45,126 nt of DNA from Planctomycetota bacterium. GTDB taxonomy: Bacteria; Planctomycetota; PLA2. The stretch's first letter is position 1. The number at the start of each line of letters is the position of its first letter. Position numbers and translations under genes: made by a program. The DNA is taken from contig JAPUHK010000183.1 in the NCBI GenBank assembly GCA_027297745.1, forward strand, positions 1 through 45,126. The letters run 5' to 3'. A model generated the notes under the pieces. It made no database searches. It saw only the letters and a program-made list of their open reading frames with translations, and was not told where the DNA came from. This document shows, one piece after another, positions 18,999-27,031 of this stretch.

Positions 18999-19748
18999 AT
19001 GGCCGGTCACAGTCATTGGGCGGGGATCAAGCACCGCAAAGCCGCGGCCGACAAGAAGCGCGGCAAGATCTTCAGCAAGCTGGCGAAGGCCATCATCTCC
19101 GCCGCACGCACGGGCGGCGGGGACCCCACCACCAACCTCGGCCTGCGCTACGCGCTCGACAAGGCGCGCGCGGCCAACATGCCCCGCGACACGATCGCGC
19201 GCGCAATCAAGAAGGGCACCGGGGAGCTCGAGGGCGACCAGATCCAGGAGCTGACCTATGAAGGCTACGGCCCAGGGGGAGCGGCCCTCTTGATCCAAGC
19301 CATCACGGACAACCCGAACCGCACGGCGCCCGACGTGCGGCACCTGATCGAGAAGCGCGGCGGCAGACTGGGCAAGCCCGGCTGCGTGGCCTGGAACTTC
19401 GAGAAAAAGACGCTGATCACGATCCGCACCGACGCCGTCGACGAGGACGCACTGATCGAGGCCGCGCTCGACGCAGGCGCGGACGACGTCACGAACGAGG
19501 GCGCCTCCTTCGCCGTGACCGGTCCGCCGGGCGCGTTTGGCGCGCTCGCGCAGGCGCTCCGGCAACTGGACCTCACCCTCGACACCTGCGACATCACCTA
19601 CCTGCCGAAGTCGCGCGTCATGCTCAGTCCGGAAGACGCGCGCAAGCTGATCGCGATCATCGAGGGCCTCGAGGACCACGACGACGTCCAGTCCGCCATC
19701 ACGAACGGCGACATCCCGGATGCGGTCCTGGCGGAGCTGGGCGCTTGA
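18999..19748 (+). CDS. yebC: YebC/PmpR family protein (translation factor / transcriptional regulator)
   Basis: The 249-residue protein matches YebC/TACO1 along its whole length: MAGHSHWAGIKHRKAAAD at the start, KIFSKLAKAI, the ARAANMPRDTIARAIKKG segment and TYEGYGPGG. Members have been described as DNA-binding regulators and, more recently, as factors that relieve ribosome stalling. The gene has a consensus TATAAT six bases before its ATG and no Shine-Dalgarno, so a leaderless message is predicted. In many bacteria yebC is next to ruvC; here it is followed by moxR with a TGATG junction. Confidence 0.96.
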   Translation: MAGHSHWAGIKHRKAAADKKRGKIFSKLAKAIISAARTGGGDPTTNLGLRYALDKARAANMPRDTIARAIKKGTGELEGDQIQELTYEGYGPGGAALLIQAITDNPNRTAPDVRHLIEKRGGRLGKPGCVAWNFEKKTLITIRTDAVDEDALIEAALDAGADDVTNEGASFAVTGPPGAFGALAQALRQLDLTLDTCDITYLPKSRVMLSPEDARKLIAIIEGLEDHDDVQSAITNGDIPDAVLAELGA

Positions 19749-20680
19749 TGCGCGAGGCCGTGGTGCGCCTCGAGCAGACGATCAACTCCGTCTTTCTGGG
19801 CAAGCCGCGTGTGGTCCGGCTGGTCATGACCACCTTCTTCGCCGGCGGCCACCTACTGCTCGAGGACGTGCCCGGCGTCGGCAAGACGATCCTGGCGCGC
19901 ACGCTCGCGCGCGCCGTGCAGGGCGAGTTCGCGCGCATCCAGTGCACGCCCGACCTGCTGCCGTCCGACATCCTCGGCACGAGCGTCTTCCACCAGGTCA
20001 GCGGCGAGTTCGAGTTCAAGCCCGGGCCGATTTTCCGCAACGTGGTGCTGGCCGACGAGATCAACCGCACCACGCCGCGCACCCAGTCCGCGTTGCTCGA
20101 GGCCATGAACGAGGCCTCGATCTCGCTCGACGGCGTGACGCACCCGCTGCCGGCGCCCTTCACGGTGCTGGCCACCCAGAACCCGTACGAGTTCGAGGGC
20201 ACCTATCCGCTGCCCGAATCACAACTGGACCGCTTCCTGATGCGCCTCTCGGTGGGCTATCCCGGGGCGGAGGACGAGATGCGCATGCTCAAGGACCAGC
20301 GCGAGGAGCACCCGCTGGACCGGGTCACGCCCGTGCTCGACTGCGAGGACGTGCTCGCGATCCAGGGGGCGGCGCGCAAGGTGCGCTTCGACGACTCCCT
20401 GCGGGGCTACCTGCTGAGCATCGTGCAGGCCACGCGCTCGCACGCGCGCGTGCGCATCGGCATCTCCCCGCGTGGTTCGCTCGGATTGCAGCGCGCCGCG
20501 CAGACGCACGCCTTCCTGGAGGACCGCGACTACGTCGTGCCGGACGACGTAAAGGGGCTCGCGGTGCCCGTGTTGGCCCACAGGCTCGTCCCGGCTTCCA
20601 CCCTGCCGGACGACAGTGAGATCGGCGAGCGGCGCCGCATCATGAAAGAGATCCTCGAGGAGATCGAGGTCCCGCTCTGA
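19748..20680 (+). CDS. MoxR family AAA ATPase
   Basis: The 310-residue protein has Walker A GVPGVGKT-like residues (EDVPGVGKTILA), Walker B LADEINR, the sensor segment TVLATQNPYEFEGTYPLPESQLDRF and a lid domain, typical of MoxR. MoxR ATPases act as chaperones, usually beside DUF58 and von Willebrand proteins, in metal insertion or envelope maturation. None of these partners follows here, so it is a solitary copy. The ATG at 19748 shares one base with the yebC TGA (TGATG); an adjacent TTG at 19745 is an alternative start. It is read convergently with hemD, with a long inverted repeat in between. Confidence 0.94.
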   Translation: MREAVVRLEQTINSVFLGKPRVVRLVMTTFFAGGHLLLEDVPGVGKTILARTLARAVQGEFARIQCTPDLLPSDILGTSVFHQVSGEFEFKPGPIFRNVVLADEINRTTPRTQSALLEAMNEASISLDGVTHPLPAPFTVLATQNPYEFEGTYPLPESQLDRFLMRLSVGYPGAEDEMRMLKDQREEHPLDRVTPVLDCEDVLAIQGAARKVRFDDSLRGYLLSIVQATRSHARVRIGISPRGSLGLQRAAQTHAFLEDRDYVVPDDVKGLAVPVLAHRLVPASTLPDDSEIGERRRIMKEILEEIEVPL

Positions 20681-22591: not shown

Positions 22592-22987
22592 CTAGCGCTT
22601 GGAGAACTGGAAACGGCGGCGCGCGCCCCGCTGTCCGTACTTCTTGCGCTCCTTCATCCGGGGATCACGGGTGAGGAAGCCGCCCTCACGCAGGGCCGCT
22701 TCGGCGTCGCTCTCCTGCTTGAGCAGGCAGCGGGCAATGCCGAGCTTGACGGCGCCGGCCTGGCCGCGCGGGCCGCCGCCTTTCACGTTCACCAGCACGT
22801 CGTACCCGGCGCGGCTGTCGGTGGCCTTGAGCGGGCCCAGAACGTCGCGCTGCTGACCGACCGTCGGGAAGTAGACCTCGAAGTCCTTGCCGTTGATGAG
22901 GATCTTGCCGCTTCCCGCCAGCAAGCGAACACGGGCCACGGCGGACTTGCGCCGCCCGAGACCCCAGACCGGGTTGCTCGCCGCCAT
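22592..22987 (-). CDS. rpsI: 30S ribosomal protein S9
   Basis: The 131-residue protein has the S9 core (GLGRRKSAVARVRL, then KGGGPRGQAGAVKLGIARCLL) and ends in the typical basic tail RRRFQFSKR, which reaches into the ribosomal P site. It is coupled to rplM by a TGATG junction, the common bacterial L13-S9 pair. The start is ATG 22987. About 100 bases separate its stop from the FHA promoter region; no terminator hairpin is obvious there. Confidence 0.98.
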   Translation of the reverse strand: MAASNPVWGLGRRKSAVARVRLLAGSGKILINGKDFEVYFPTVGQQRDVLGPLKATDSRAGYDVLVNVKGGGPRGQAGAVKLGIARCLLKQESDAEAALREGGFLTRDPRMKERKKYGQRGARRRFQFSKR

Positions 22988-23433
22988 CAGGCACTCCTCC
23001 CGGTGTTGAAGGCCAACGGCTCCGGCTGTTGCGCCTCGTGCGGGTGCTCCGCTCCGGCGTACAGCTTGAGCTTACTCAGCATCTGCTTGCCGAGACGCGT
23101 CTTGGGCAGCATGCGCCGCACCGCCGAACGCAGCACCTCTTCGGGCTTCCTGACGCGCATGTCGGCCAACGTGCGCTCCTTGCGCCCTCCGTGCCAGCCC
23201 GTGTACCACTGGTACATCTTCTGCGCCTCCTTGGCGCCGGTGGCCTGGATCTTCTCCGCGTTGATCACGACGATATAGTCGCCGGTGTCGACGTGCGCGG
23301 TATAGGTCGGCCGGTGCTTGCCCTGCAGGATCATGGCGATGCGCGTCGCCGCGCGCCCCAGGACTTCCTTCCCGGCGTCGACCAGATACCAGCGGGGCTC
23401 AATCTCCCCGCGCTTTGCCATCGGTGTCTTCAT
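22987..23433 (-). CDS. rplM: 50S ribosomal protein L13
   Basis: The 148-residue protein matches L13: MKTPMAKRGEIEPRWYLVDA, RGKHRPTYTAHVDTGDYIVV-like core, GGRKERTLADM, RMLPKTRLGKQMLSKLKLY and AGAEHPHEAQQP near the C-terminus. L13 is an early 23S rRNA binder needed for 50S assembly. The ATG at 23433 is favoured over the one four codons later because MKT aligns with E. coli L13. A consensus promoter lies immediately upstream, so the ribosomal pair is expressed independently of the dcw cluster that precedes it on the same strand. Confidence 0.98.
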   Translation of the reverse strand: MKTPMAKRGEIEPRWYLVDAGKEVLGRAATRIAMILQGKHRPTYTAHVDTGDYIVVINAEKIQATGAKEAQKMYQWYTGWHGGRKERTLADMRVRKPEEVLRSAVRRMLPKTRLGKQMLSKLKLYAGAEHPHEAQQPEPLAFNTGRSA

Positions 23434-23452: not shown

Positions 23453-23481
23453 AAGGTAAGGGCGGCTCCGGGCCCTGTCAA
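23453..23481 (-). promoter_or_regulatory. Sigma-70-type promoter for rplM-rpsI
   Basis: A perfect -35 TTGACA (23481-23476 on the minus strand) is separated by exactly 17 bp from TACCTT (23458-23453). The start of transcription would be about 12 bases before the rplM ATG. The -35 overlaps the stop codon of the upstream membrane protein gene. Confidence 0.7.
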
Positions 23482-24743
23482 TCTTGGCGCACCGCCCGGA
23501 TGCGCAGGATGGGATCCGGGAAGCCGTTCGAAGGCCGGCCACGCTCCCCTACCAGCCAGGAGATCCAGCCGACGCCCTGGAACGGCTGCCGCTCCCCGGG
23601 CCAGGGCGACCGGAAAGGAACCACCGCGGGAACCGGCTCCGTACCGTTCTGACGTCGGATCGTCTCCTCGAGCGTGAAGCGCCAGCGCCCCTTGCGCAAG
23701 AGCATCCGCCGGTCCGGGTCGCTCCACCAGGGCGCCTCGGCGGCGTCGCTCAGAAGCGGCGTCTCCCGCTCGCCTACAGCCAGGCTCGGCTCCCCGGCCA
23801 CGGCGGTCCGCATGCGGTAGACACGCAGCCGCTCGTAGCCGCCCCCCTCCACCGCGACGTGGATCTCGCCCGAGGCCCAGGGCTGATATTCCCTGTGCGA
23901 CAGCCGCCCCATGAGCCCACCGCCCAGGCTGATCACGAGCAAGCCCAGCACGAGCGACCAGCGGCTGAAGTGGAAGCGCAACCCGAGCACGAGCAGCAGC
24001 GCGCTCGCCAGGGCGGATCCCCACATGGTCAGGCGAGCGGACTGCAGCGGTCCCGCGTAGATCTCCGCCTGAAGCAGTCCGAAAGCGCCGTACAGGTCCG
24101 GTCGCACCGCAGTCGGGCGCGTCGGGTGCGCCCGTTCCCATGGCGCCTCCGACACGGCGCGCATCAACCCGCCCACCGAATCGTCCAGGGCGAACCAACC
24201 GAGGCCGCCCCCTGCGCCGACGTAGTACGCTCCCGCGCGACCTAGCGCCGCCACCCGGCCGCCTGCGTGCGCCCATTCCACGAGCGCCTTGTCGGCACCG
24301 GCCTTCAACCGCGCGGGCGCAGCCGCCACGATCACCAGGTCGAAGAGGTCATAGGCTCGCCAGTCGTCCGGCAAGCGGTCCCGTTCGATGGGTTGCAAGA
24401 GCACGCGGCGGCCGGCCGCCTCGCCGATGAGCTTCTGAGCGGTGTCCGGAACGGTTCCTACTACGCCGACGAGGAAGACGTCGTCCGGGACCGCCTCGAG
24501 AGCCAACAGCTCCGCGCCTTCCGCGTCTCTGATGCGGCAGGGCACCCGCGGGACGAAGACGGTCGTGATGCCTCCGCTCACAAGCCACGCCGTCCAGCCG
24601 CCGTCGACCGTGACGCTGCCCTGGTCCGAGCTGTAGACGGGGACCGGCACGCCCGGCCGGGCGAAGCGCCCGAACGGTGCTTCCACCTCCCCTACCGCGG
24701 GCAGGCACCAAGCGAGGAAGAGCAGCGCCGCGGCAGGCTTCAT
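23478..24743 (-). CDS. Exported membrane protein with amidotransferase-like domain, last gene of the dcw cluster
   Basis: The 421-residue product has a signal peptide (about 1-18), an extracytoplasmic part that includes a Rossmann-like segment (FDLVIVAAAPARL...WAHAGGRVAALG, about 134-169) resembling class I amidotransferase-like folds without a visible catalytic Cys, then two transmembrane segments (about 238-256 and 262-280) and a C-terminal extracytoplasmic domain of about 140 residues. I do not recognise a named family. Its ATG overlaps the previous stop (ATGA) and has GGAGGG upstream, so it is co-translated with the six-TM protein downstream of ftsQ. These two genes sit where ftsA and ftsZ are usually found; a role in division or wall synthesis is an inference from position only. 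Confidence 0.75.
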   Translation of the reverse strand: MKPAAALLFLAWCLPAVGEVEAPFGRFARPGVPVPVYSSDQGSVTVDGGWTAWLVSGGITTVFVPRVPCRIRDAEGAELLALEAVPDDVFLVGVVGTVPDTAQKLIGEAAGRRVLLQPIERDRLPDDWRAYDLFDLVIVAAAPARLKAGADKALVEWAHAGGRVAALGRAGAYYVGAGGGLGWFALDDSVGGLMRAVSEAPWERAHPTRPTAVRPDLYGAFGLLQAEIYAGPLQSARLTMWGSALASALLLVLGLRFHFSRWSLVLGLLVISLGGGLMGRLSHREYQPWASGEIHVAVEGGGYERLRVYRMRTAVAGEPSLAVGERETPLLSDAAEAPWWSDPDRRMLLRKGRWRFTLEETIRRQNGTEPVPAVVPFRSPWPGERQPFQGVGWISWLVGERGRPSNGFPDPILRIRAVRQD

Positions 24744-25327
24744 CGAGCCCTCCTCGGCACCAATACGGAGGCCAGCGCCGGCCATAGCAGTAGCGTGACG
24801 CACGCGGCCACGGGAATTGCGTCCCCGCTCGCTGCTTCGACCGCTCCGGCCAGGGGCGACAACGCACGCCAGTTCAGCGCGGAGCTCGAAGCCCCAAACT
24901 CGGCCCGCAGATAGGCGGCCGCGTAAGGACCCAGGAAGATCAGAAGTGTGACCGGCAAATAGAAGCGCACGGCCCTGGTCCCTTCCAGTGCGCGCGCCGC
25001 TGCGCCCGACGCCAACGCGCAGGCGAGCAGCGCGAGCGATCCCGGCAGGTACGCTCCCGCCGCGGCGTAGGCCACGGACAGAAGACACGGGAGCACGAGC
25101 AGCAAGGGAAGCAGGGTCCAGCCCAGCCTCCCACGCGTGGCGATGGCCGGCCACAGGATCGCGCCATACACGACCGCGATCGCGGTGCAAAGCCCGGGCA
25201 GGTCCCACTGGCGCTCCGGACGGGCCAGCAGCAGCGCCGCGCTCAACGAGGCGAGCAGCAACAGGGCCGCGGCTCCCTCGCGGGAAGGCACGGTGCGTTT
25301 TCCTGCGTCGAGGCGCGGAGCCGCCAT
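24740..25327 (-). CDS. Six-TM integral membrane protein in the dcw cluster, function unknown
   Basis: The 195-residue protein is almost entirely hydrophobic, with about six predicted transmembrane segments (roughly 18-35, 45-63, 70-90, 92-112, 121-140 and 171-190) and short basic loops. The NWRALSPLAG stretch before the last segment is reminiscent of ABC-2-type permeases, but this is a weak resemblance and no ATPase gene is near. The ATG at 25327 has AGGAG four bases upstream; a longer in-frame extension overlaps ftsQ and reads as an out-of-frame copy. It lies 20 nt after the ftsQ-like gene and is coupled to the following gene by ATGA. Confidence 0.7.
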   Translation of the reverse strand: MAAPRLDAGKRTVPSREGAAALLLLASLSAALLLARPERQWDLPGLCTAIAVVYGAILWPAIATRGRLGWTLLPLLLVLPCLLSVAYAAAGAYLPGSLALLACALASGAAARALEGTRAVRFYLPVTLLIFLGPYAAAYLRAEFGASSSALNWRALSPLAGAVEAASGDAIPVAACVTLLLWPALASVLVPRRAR

Positions 25328-25347
25328 GTCTCTCCTAACGGATGGGC

Positions 25348-26145
25348 TCAGGACGCGCCCGATTGTCGGAGATAGGGCTCCCCGAGTCGAACGTCCAGCA
25401 CCTGTCCCGCCAGGAGATCGGCGTAACGCGCAAAGGCGCGCAGGTAGCGCACCTTCCGCTCGACCGAGTTCTCGGCCACCGTGGCGCCCGGCCGCCCCCA
25501 GAGCACGGACACATCCCGTGCGCCGCGCAGCACGACTCCCTTGCGCGCCTCTTCCGCGCCGGAGACGTCCAGCCCGCGTAATCCGAGGCCGTTGAGCTCG
25601 GCGAGGTGCGGGGCCAGCTGGAACAGCGTCAGGAGCCCCGCGTCGAGCCGCACATCGTCCCAGTATTCGCCCGGCAGGGGCGGCTGCGACCGCACCCCTT
25701 CGATCGCGAACAGCGTGGCCATGCGCTCCCGATAGGGCTCTGGGGGCAACACCATGCCGTCCAGGCAAACGGGCACGAAGTGCTCTCCCACGCGCACGGT
25801 GGCGTACGGGCGGCGCAACAAGACGTCGGCCGTGTAGCCGCGCGGCCAGCGGCGCCCGACGTTCAACACGTCGTACACGACGGGGTCTGCCAGCAGCGCG
25901 CCTGCCACCTTGTGGTCGAGCTCGGGATCGCACAGGTGCACCGGGCCAAGCACCTTCAGCCGCGCCACCAACCGCCCCACGATTCGGCCTTCAACCGCGT
26001 CCATGGGTGTCAGGTTGAGCTCCACCGGCATGGCCAGAAAACGCCGGTCCTGCATCAGCGCCCGTTGCGCCATGCGCACCAGCGTGGGGACCAGCAGCGC
26101 GATCAGCAGCAGCCAGGTCAGCCGCGAGCGAAGGAAAGCACGCAC
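25348..26145 (-). CDS. ftsQ: FtsQ/DivIB-like cell division protein (divergent)
   Basis: The 265-residue protein has a short cytoplasmic N-terminus, one transmembrane segment (about 9-25) and a periplasmic part. VGRRWPRGYTADVLLRRPYATV followed by VPVCLDGMVLP matches the FtsQ beta-domain pattern of an RxWP motif, an E/R-R-P strand and a DxxG turn. The end, RAFARYADLLAGQVLDVRLGEPYL, resembles the FtsQ C-terminal strand with its conserved basic residue. The POTRA portion is weakly conserved. Position right after murB supports the call. FtsQ bridges FtsL/FtsB with early divisome proteins. The start is GTG at 26145, one base after the murB stop. Confidence 0.75.
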   Translation of the reverse strand: MRAFLRSRLTWLLLIALLVPTLVRMAQRALMQDRRFLAMPVELNLTPMDAVEGRIVGRLVARLKVLGPVHLCDPELDHKVAGALLADPVVYDVLNVGRRWPRGYTADVLLRRPYATVRVGEHFVPVCLDGMVLPPEPYRERMATLFAIEGVRSQPPLPGEYWDDVRLDAGLLTLFQLAPHLAELNGLGLRGLDVSGAEEARKGVVLRGARDVSVLWGRPGATVAENSVERKVRYLRAFARYADLLAGQVLDVRLGEPYLRQSGAS

Positions 26146-26146
26146 G

Positions 26147-27031
26147 CTACAGCCACCTCCGAACCTCGAGCTCGAGCTCGGCTCCGCTAGCCCGGCGAAC
26201 GCGCTTGCGCACCCTGTCGATCAGGCGCTGGACGCTCTCCGCTCTGCCGCCGCCGACGTTCTCGAAGAAGTTGGCGTGCCGCCGCGAGACGCGGATGCGG
26301 CCTTCCGTCAGGCCCTTGCAACCCGCGTCGTCGATCAGCCGCCCAGCCGAAGCCCCCGGGGGGTTCTTGAACACGCAGCCGGCATTGCCGACCCATCCCG
26401 GCTGCGTCCGGTTGCGCTCGCGCACGATGTCCTGCGTGCGGCGCCCGACGCGCTCACGGTCGCCGGGCTCCACGCTCAATTCGACGCGCAGTACGACCGA
26501 GTCGCCCACCAACGAGTGCCGGTAGCCGAAGAAACTCCCGGAGGGCACGACGCGCTCGAGCTGCCCTTCGGGTCGCAAGAGCTCCAACGCCAACACGCGG
26601 GGTCCGATCGCCCCGTACTTGCTGCCGGCGTTGCCGAACACGGCCCCGCCGACGGTGCCTGGAATGCCGCCGAAGGGTTCCAGCCCACTGAGACCCTGTT
26701 CCGCCGCCACGCGCACGACCGTGGACAGGCGGGCGCCGCCGTCCGCGGTGATGCGCCCCTCGCTGCGCTTGATCTGCCGCAGGCGAGCGAGCGAGAGCAC
26801 CGCGCCTTCGACCCCGCGGTCCGCAACGAGCAGGTTGCTGCCGCCGCCGAGGATGCGATAGGGCATGCCGATGCGTCGCAATGCCACGACGCTCTCGACC
26901 AGGTCGGTGACCGACTCGGGCTCCAGGTACAGCTGTGCGGGCCCGCCAATGCGGAACGTCGTCTCCGGCGCCAGCAGGCGCCCGAGGGACCAGCGTCCCC
27001 TAAAGCGCTTGCGCCAGTCGGCCGGCAACAT
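26147..27031 (-). CDS. murB: UDP-N-acetylenolpyruvoylglucosamine reductase MurB
   Basis: The 294-residue flavoenzyme reduces UDP-GlcNAc-enolpyruvate to UDP-MurNAc using NADPH. Visible landmarks are TTFRIGGPAQLYLEP, the FAD-binding YRILGGGSNLLVADRG, GLSGLEPFGGIPGTVGG, NAGCVFKNPPG, and AGRLIDDAGCKG with the catalytic serine region (SAGRL). The sequence is of the compact type II MurB. The ATG at 27031 lies 32 bases inside the end of murC, the longest overlap in the cluster; no ATG, GTG or TTG follows the murC stop before the conserved region. It is thus almost certainly co-translated with murC. Confidence 0.95.
   Translation of the reverse strand: MLPADWRKRFRGRWSLGRLLAPETTFRIGGPAQLYLEPESVTDLVESVVALRRIGMPYRILGGGSNLLVADRGVEGAVLSLARLRQIKRSEGRITADGGARLSTVVRVAAEQGLSGLEPFGGIPGTVGGAVFGNAGSKYGAIGPRVLALELLRPEGQLERVVPSGSFFGYRHSLVGDSVVLRVELSVEPGDRERVGRRTQDIVRERNRTQPGWVGNAGCVFKNPPGASAGRLIDDAGCKGLTEGRIRVSRRHANFFENVGGGRAESVQRLIDRVRKRVRRASGAELELEVRRWL

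Follow-up and report, generated by a model that had tools for sequence, protein, structure and literature searches.

GldF-GldG couples a small polytopic membrane protein to a membrane-anchored, extracytoplasmic partner with a GATase-like fold, and FtsEX is a membrane complex whose extracytoplasmic domain acts on septal wall enzymes. These are among the described systems closest to the locus analysed here, which lies in a window of 45,126 nucleotides (the whole stretch of DNA that was studied, contig JAPUHK010000183.1 of a Planctomycetota bacterium). The minus strand of the window reads, 5' to 3', mraZ-mraW-ftsL-ftsI-murE-murF-mraY-ftsW-murG-murC-murB-ftsQ-orfA-orfB, followed by rplM-rpsI. As the initial annotation had claimed, two membrane proteins fill the place of ftsA-ftsZ after murB and ftsQ, and neither ftsA nor ftsZ is present in this slot. 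On balance it is moderately probable that orfA-orfB is a planctomycete component of the dcw cluster, probably older than the loss of FtsZ, and forms an accessory membrane complex near FtsQ.

The features of the locus are collected in Table 1. The anchor gene of the slot gave no Pfam or NCBIfam match; its assignment as ftsQ rests on its position and on later profile matches, an iterated profile grouping it with FtsQs across Planctomycetota. The tight arrangement of the pair, described earlier as same-strand, within 20 nt of ftsQ and coupled by ATGA, was found as such: the spacing from ftsQ to orfA is 20 nt, and the 4-nt overlap of orfA and orfB recurs in five relatives and in several families. 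Both AGGAGA and GAGGAGG are good ribosome-binding sites. A promoter-like element ahead of rplM begins in the stop region of orfB and was missed by a consensus promoter scan because its -10 hexamer agrees at 3/6 positions only. A similar arrangement, TTGAC(A/C)-16/17-TACnnT, precedes rplM in nine relatives, so that the own promoter proposed for rplM is plausible; this argues that orfB is probably the final gene of the preceding operon. On the other strand of the window, near rpsI, an AAA-type gene (19748-20680) was seen that is MoxR-like by sequence; some sister-family genomes encode its homologue on the same strand instead, after yebC and downstream of rpsI.

Table 1. Features of the ftsQ-orfA-orfB locus in the window, and FtsZ genes of FtsZ-bearing relatives
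Feature	Position	Strand	Remarks
murB	26147-27031	minus	
ftsQ	25348..26145	minus	GTG start; anchor gene of the slot; phmmer family matches 1e-48 to 1e-49
orfA ribosome-binding site	25331..25336	minus	AGGAGA
orfA	24740..25327 (incl. stop)	minus	195 aa, six TM; homologues of 174-179 aa in three family members
orfB ribosome-binding site	24748..24755	minus	GAGGAGGG (GAGGAGG ahead of start)
orfA stop/orfB start overlap	24740..24743	minus	ATGA
orfB	23478..24743	minus	421 aa, predicted exported; other-family dcw-linked profile match 7.7e-16
OrfB residues 89-167	24243..24479	minus	predicted Rossmann/GATase-like domain without Cys (AlphaFold2 model, Foldseek)
OrfB residues 231-285	23889..24053	minus	two predicted TM helices and short basic loop (model, hydropathy)
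Promoter-like element ahead of rplM	23453..23481	minus	TTGACA-17-TACCTT, beginning in the orfB stop region
rplM	22987..23433	minus	next operon
FtsZ genes, families f64/f12/f76/f47 (dcw) and f39 (own contig)	L109:6375-7466, L032:538-1650, L112:3087-4160, L158:4964-6037		
FtsZ genes, same families, continued	L157:4918-5997, L198:1819-2889, L174:4236-5201, L213:6549-7355		

Hydropathy analysis revealed six hydrophobic segments in OrfA, and in OrfB a signal-like N terminus with two later TM segments. In the AlphaFold2 model of OrfB, built on a 12-sequence alignment and with a mean pLDDT of 63, a beta-sandwich (residues 32-84) precedes the Rossmann/GATase-like domain and the two TM helices, and a beta domain forms the C-terminal end. 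A Foldseek search with OrfB gave no match below E 0.001; the ThuA-like structure 4e5v came second by E-value (E 0.029, prob 0.97), and the GATase/ThuA-like fold assignment is suggestive. The earlier description of a six-TM protein and an exported protein with an amidotransferase-like segment thus agrees with the predicted architecture. OrfB contains Cys at residues 13 and 69 only, and the absence of the catalytic Cys of class I glutamine amidotransferases from its GATase-like domain led to its rejection as an active enzyme of this kind. The two TM helices are joined by a short basic loop that is read as cytoplasmic; because of this loop and the signal segment, the soluble domains of OrfB are predicted to lie outside the cytoplasm. 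Neither OrfA nor OrfB showed a Pfam or NCBIfam match, and no recognisable NTPase, nucleotide-binding, filament or polymer domain was found in them.

Within the family of the window (f1), gene order around the pair is conserved in the three relatives whose context could be read, although in two of them a further gene separates ftsQ from orfA. In the sister family (f2), a single fused protein of about 550 aa follows ftsQ in 8/8 genomes readable on both sides, with rplM behind it in 7/8. From its N to its C terminus this fusion comprises a TM bundle, a GATase-like region, two TM helices and a beta region; Foldseek with its model (mean pLDDT 57) returned no usable match. Direct profile comparison of f1 and f2 was weak (E 0.003-0.005), and the link between them runs via other families. 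The stable attachment to ftsQ that had been suggested for the pair was therefore observed in the window and three further f1 members, in eight f2 genomes as a fusion, and in other families. In one genome (G003, L019:8002-11028) a protein of 1008 aa with an N terminus that reads as ECF sigma-like, followed by repeats, is encoded between ftsQ and orfA. Four sister-family stretches (L021, L023, L028, L029) contain two opposite-strand genes upstream of ftsQ, encoding about 480 and 640-700 aa, which lie between murB and ftsQ wherever murB is in the stretch.

For the survey across Planctomycetota, 196 genomes with a completeness of 85% or more were searched for MurB, and 190 of them gave a match. 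The downstream regions comprised 60 chosen mainly to add families, 20 earlier ones and the order itself, with genes called by a home-made caller in what were mostly fragmented drafts. A family was counted as readable when ftsQ was available together with one or more genes downstream of it, giving 38 families (f60, at a contig end, was left out and f39 was counted though split), and the slot was defined as the next same-strand gene (next but one in two f1 genomes) or the gene after ftsA-ftsZ. In 19/38 readable families, f1 and f2 included, the slot holds OrfA, the OrfA-OrfB pair or their fusion. Fifteen of these 19 have sequence support, and for four (f4, f35, f49, f57) the assignment relies only on position and topology; in half of the 38 families the module is not at this place. 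The order module-rplM-rpsI of the window is also found in f28 and f9. In L123 (f4) and L182 (f57) the OrfA-like gene is followed by an apparent greA, with OrfB not beside it. Near ftsQ of f19, on the opposite strand, an OrfB-like gene of 732 aa was seen (L160:4896-7094), possibly an ABC-associated paralogue.

The f1 OrfB profile also matched proteins of other genomes across the phylum at 3e-8 to 7e-4. At the non-dcw OrfB-like loci read in context and with usable gene calls, an ABC ATPase gene lies beside the match in 7/8 cases, most also with an ABC-2 permease gene (L074, L075, L076, L077, L079, L081 and, by position, the low-GC L078, where gene calling missed the gene that had matched). In L073 no ABC gene was called, and L072 was read as a possible OrfB of an FtsZ-bearing genome. 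Comparison of OrfB with the ABC-2-associated proteins by hhalign gave 93.9% probability (E 1.6e-7) over the GATase-like domain. Some ABC-linked relatives show weak, sub-cut-off matches to DUF7408/DUF4350; OrfB has no Pfam match to either. Judged from these similarities, OrfB and the accessory subunits of ABC-2 transporters probably have a common origin. This neighbourhood and this profile match speak for the main rival explanation, in which the module would be an ABC-2-like envelope complex with its ATPase encoded elsewhere, kept in the dcw operon for coupling to expression or growth rate and with no direct role in septation. For OrfA, the pooled profile with fusion N-termini is faintly similar to ABC-2 permeases (E 7.6e-4), which also points this way, whereas f1 OrfA by itself is not significantly similar (E 0.018). 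No ABC2_membrane or other Pfam domain was found in 14 OrfAs, and the reading of OrfA as a plain ABC-2 permease was not adopted. Furthermore, no ABC ATPase or permease gene lies beside the module in the window, which is flanked there by dcw genes and rplM/rpsI; no ATPase gene adjoins it in the dcw contexts of the survey, going by their labels, and the retention of the module behind ftsQ or ftsZ in many families suggests a linkage to division. A transport-type complex of this kind is possible, although we regard it as rather unlikely.

Since the survey labels came partly from profiles containing the labelled genes, profiles without f1/f2 and leave-one-family-out tests, which are less circular, were also used. 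Against a background of several hundred proteins, the OrfB profile without f1/f2 recovered the window OrfB at the E-value given in Table 1 and one f2 fusion at 1.5e-7; its other matches below 1e-4 were dcw-linked or ABC-associated relatives. In profile-profile comparison with the other families, f1 OrfB scored 5e-14 and the C-terminal part of the f2 fusion 1e-8. A profile seeded with f1 OrfB only stayed within family f1, whereas other-family profiles did reach f1 OrfB. Leaving out one family at a time, the OrfAs of f12, f13, f28, f38, f64, f76 and f77 were recovered, as was that of f39, and so were the OrfB regions of f5, f9, f13, f21, f38, f58, f71 and f77. Fusion N-termini from other families matched split OrfAs at 1.4e-7 and f1 OrfA matched the pooled OrfA profile at E 1.3e-5, while OrfA profiles scored 0.066 or worse against FtsW and MraY. 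In the OrfB tree most deep nodes have less than 60% support and dcw-linked and ABC-linked members are not separated; orthology therefore rests largely on synteny. This tree, the weak f1-f2 similarity and the four families placed by position only would suit an explanation by unrelated membrane genes that recur as the last genes of the dcw operon, similar in architecture by chance or independent recruitment. This explanation is very improbable in view of the recovery of OrfB regions from ten families, f1 and f2 among them, and of OrfAs from seven by profiles of other families.

The proposed genome search for ftsZ and ftsA was carried out. With the tubulin/FtsZ model no FtsZ was detected in the own genome, and neither PF00091 (tubulin/FtsZ) nor PF02491 (FtsA) matched in any of the 17 genomes of the order; a profile of planctomycete FtsZs, including apparently degenerate ones, likewise gave 0/17 in a search without a positive control. 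The statement that many planctomycetes lack FtsZ can be extended, as the loss is nearly phylum-wide: PF00091 matched in only 6/294 planctomycete genomes. With so few matches, co-occurrence of the pair with FtsZ loss, which had been suggested as a check, is uninformative; linkage to ftsQ or to ftsQ-ftsA-ftsZ was found in the 19 families. Three of the six matches (f75) apparently belong to a different tubulin-family protein; the two read in context (L033, L035) are about 445 aa long with a long basic N terminus, unlike the dcw-linked FtsZs.

FtsZ-bearing relatives of three families (f64, f12, f76) have the cluster murB-ddl-ftsQ-ftsA-ftsZ-orfA. In f39, ftsQ-ftsA and ftsZ-orfA are on separate contigs, and here too the OrfA relative directly follows ftsZ; orfA and the OrfB relative lie on different contigs in f64 and f12. 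Both GGGTGAG and a D-(I/V)-PTFLRR tail are retained by the FtsZs of f64 and f39. The tubulin signature is missing from the FtsZs of f12 and f47 and altered in that of f76; f12 FtsZ keeps a D-I-P-(T/A)-(Y/F) tail. The FtsZ C-terminal Pfam domain matched at E 0.1 or better in 6/8 planctomycete FtsZs. Some planctomycete FtsZ genes are thus apparently degenerate in sequence, and the FtsZ-bearing relatives, in some of which FtsZ is devoid of the GTPase signature, may represent intermediate stages of FtsZ loss. According to a 2023 paper (PMC10632474), ftsZ has been lost from all Planctomycetes; the ftsZ loci of f64, f39, f12, f76 and f47 do not fit this statement, though misplacement of contigs in the drafts is possible. 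Separately, an FtsA-like gene with no ftsZ labelled behind it was seen after ftsQ in f11 (L127:9322-10620) and downstream of murB in f45 (L173).

The OrfA relative directly behind ftsZ in families with ftsQ-ftsA-ftsZ argues that the module probably predates FtsZ loss, and that it accompanied FtsZ and did not arise as its substitute. Replacement of FtsA-FtsZ by the pair as organiser of an FtsZ-independent division apparatus, one of the two roles offered in the initial annotation, has the position of the pair and the 17/17 order genomes without detected FtsZ and FtsA in its favour, but it is set aside as very improbable, and a cytoskeletal replacement as unlikely, given that OrfA relatives coexist with FtsZ, that a recognisable nucleotide-binding or polymer fold is lacking, that the soluble domains of OrfB are predicted to be extracytoplasmic, and that most of the phylum is devoid of FtsZ, families that do not have the module in this slot among them. 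The other role, an accessory division module, stands as a good hypothesis based on gene order only.

The preferred reading of orfA-orfB as a dcw-cluster component older than FtsZ loss is consistent with the observed gene order, architecture and profile relations and with no detectable FtsZ/FtsA. The ancestral order would have been murB-ddl-ftsQ-ftsA-ftsZ-orfA-orfB, from which ftsA-ftsZ would have decayed and then been deleted, so that orfA-orfB would have come to follow ftsQ directly, which is the order of the window; in several lineages, the sister family included, orfA and orfB would have become fused. The two proteins may form an inner-membrane complex with OrfA as the membrane core and OrfB anchored by its two TM helices, the beta-sandwich, the non-catalytic GATase/ThuA-like domain and the beta domain being placed outside the cytoplasm. 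Such a complex could contact the divisome, with a scaffolding or regulatory role in its FtsQ-centred late part, close to FtsQ-FtsL-FtsI/FtsW and to the synthesis of the septal wall, and it may derive from, or have a common ancestor with, ABC-2 transporter accessory subunits. A wider version, in which a divisome membrane module ancestral in Planctomycetota was recruited from an ABC-2 accessory system, worked with FtsA-FtsZ and stayed linked to FtsQ after their loss, is put forward tentatively, as somewhat doubtful. OrfA-OrfB have the look of an old part of the division machinery that has been overlooked, rather than of an FtsZ substitute. As a pair beside ftsQ or after ftsZ they provide named candidate proteins for division in planctomycetes without FtsZ, and a testable account of the division cluster as it stood before FtsZ was lost and as it stands since. 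The open-access PMC literature, as searched, yielded no description of the module; an earlier one, for example in a subscription journal, is possible.

Compared with known systems, OrfA-OrfB share with FtsA-FtsZ the chromosomal place after ftsQ; they differ in that no similarity between the two pairs was detected and in that rare lineages have both an OrfA relative and FtsZ. The likeness to the ThuA-like or class I glutamine amidotransferase fold is that of OrfB residues 89-167 to 4e5v, whereas the E-value is modest and the domain of OrfB, devoid of Cys, is fused to membrane helices and beta domains. FtsEX offers a comparison by mode of action, as OrfA-OrfB may work in a similar way; the pair differs in its domain content, in having no FtsE ATPase gene beside it and in showing no FtsX or other Pfam match. 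The general description of GldF-GldG resembles that predicted for OrfA-OrfB, but no GldA-like ATPase is encoded near the latter and OrfA is at most a putative ABC permease. The DUF7408/DUF4350-like ABC-2-associated proteins are encoded beside an ABC ATPase and an ABC-2 permease and are usually longer than OrfB, which in contrast is encoded in a dcw operon, next to a small six-TM partner and without an ATPase gene. With these proteins, as their architecture is read from sequence, OrfB appears to share the N-terminal beta domain, the GATase-like domain, the paired TM helices and the C-terminal beta region.
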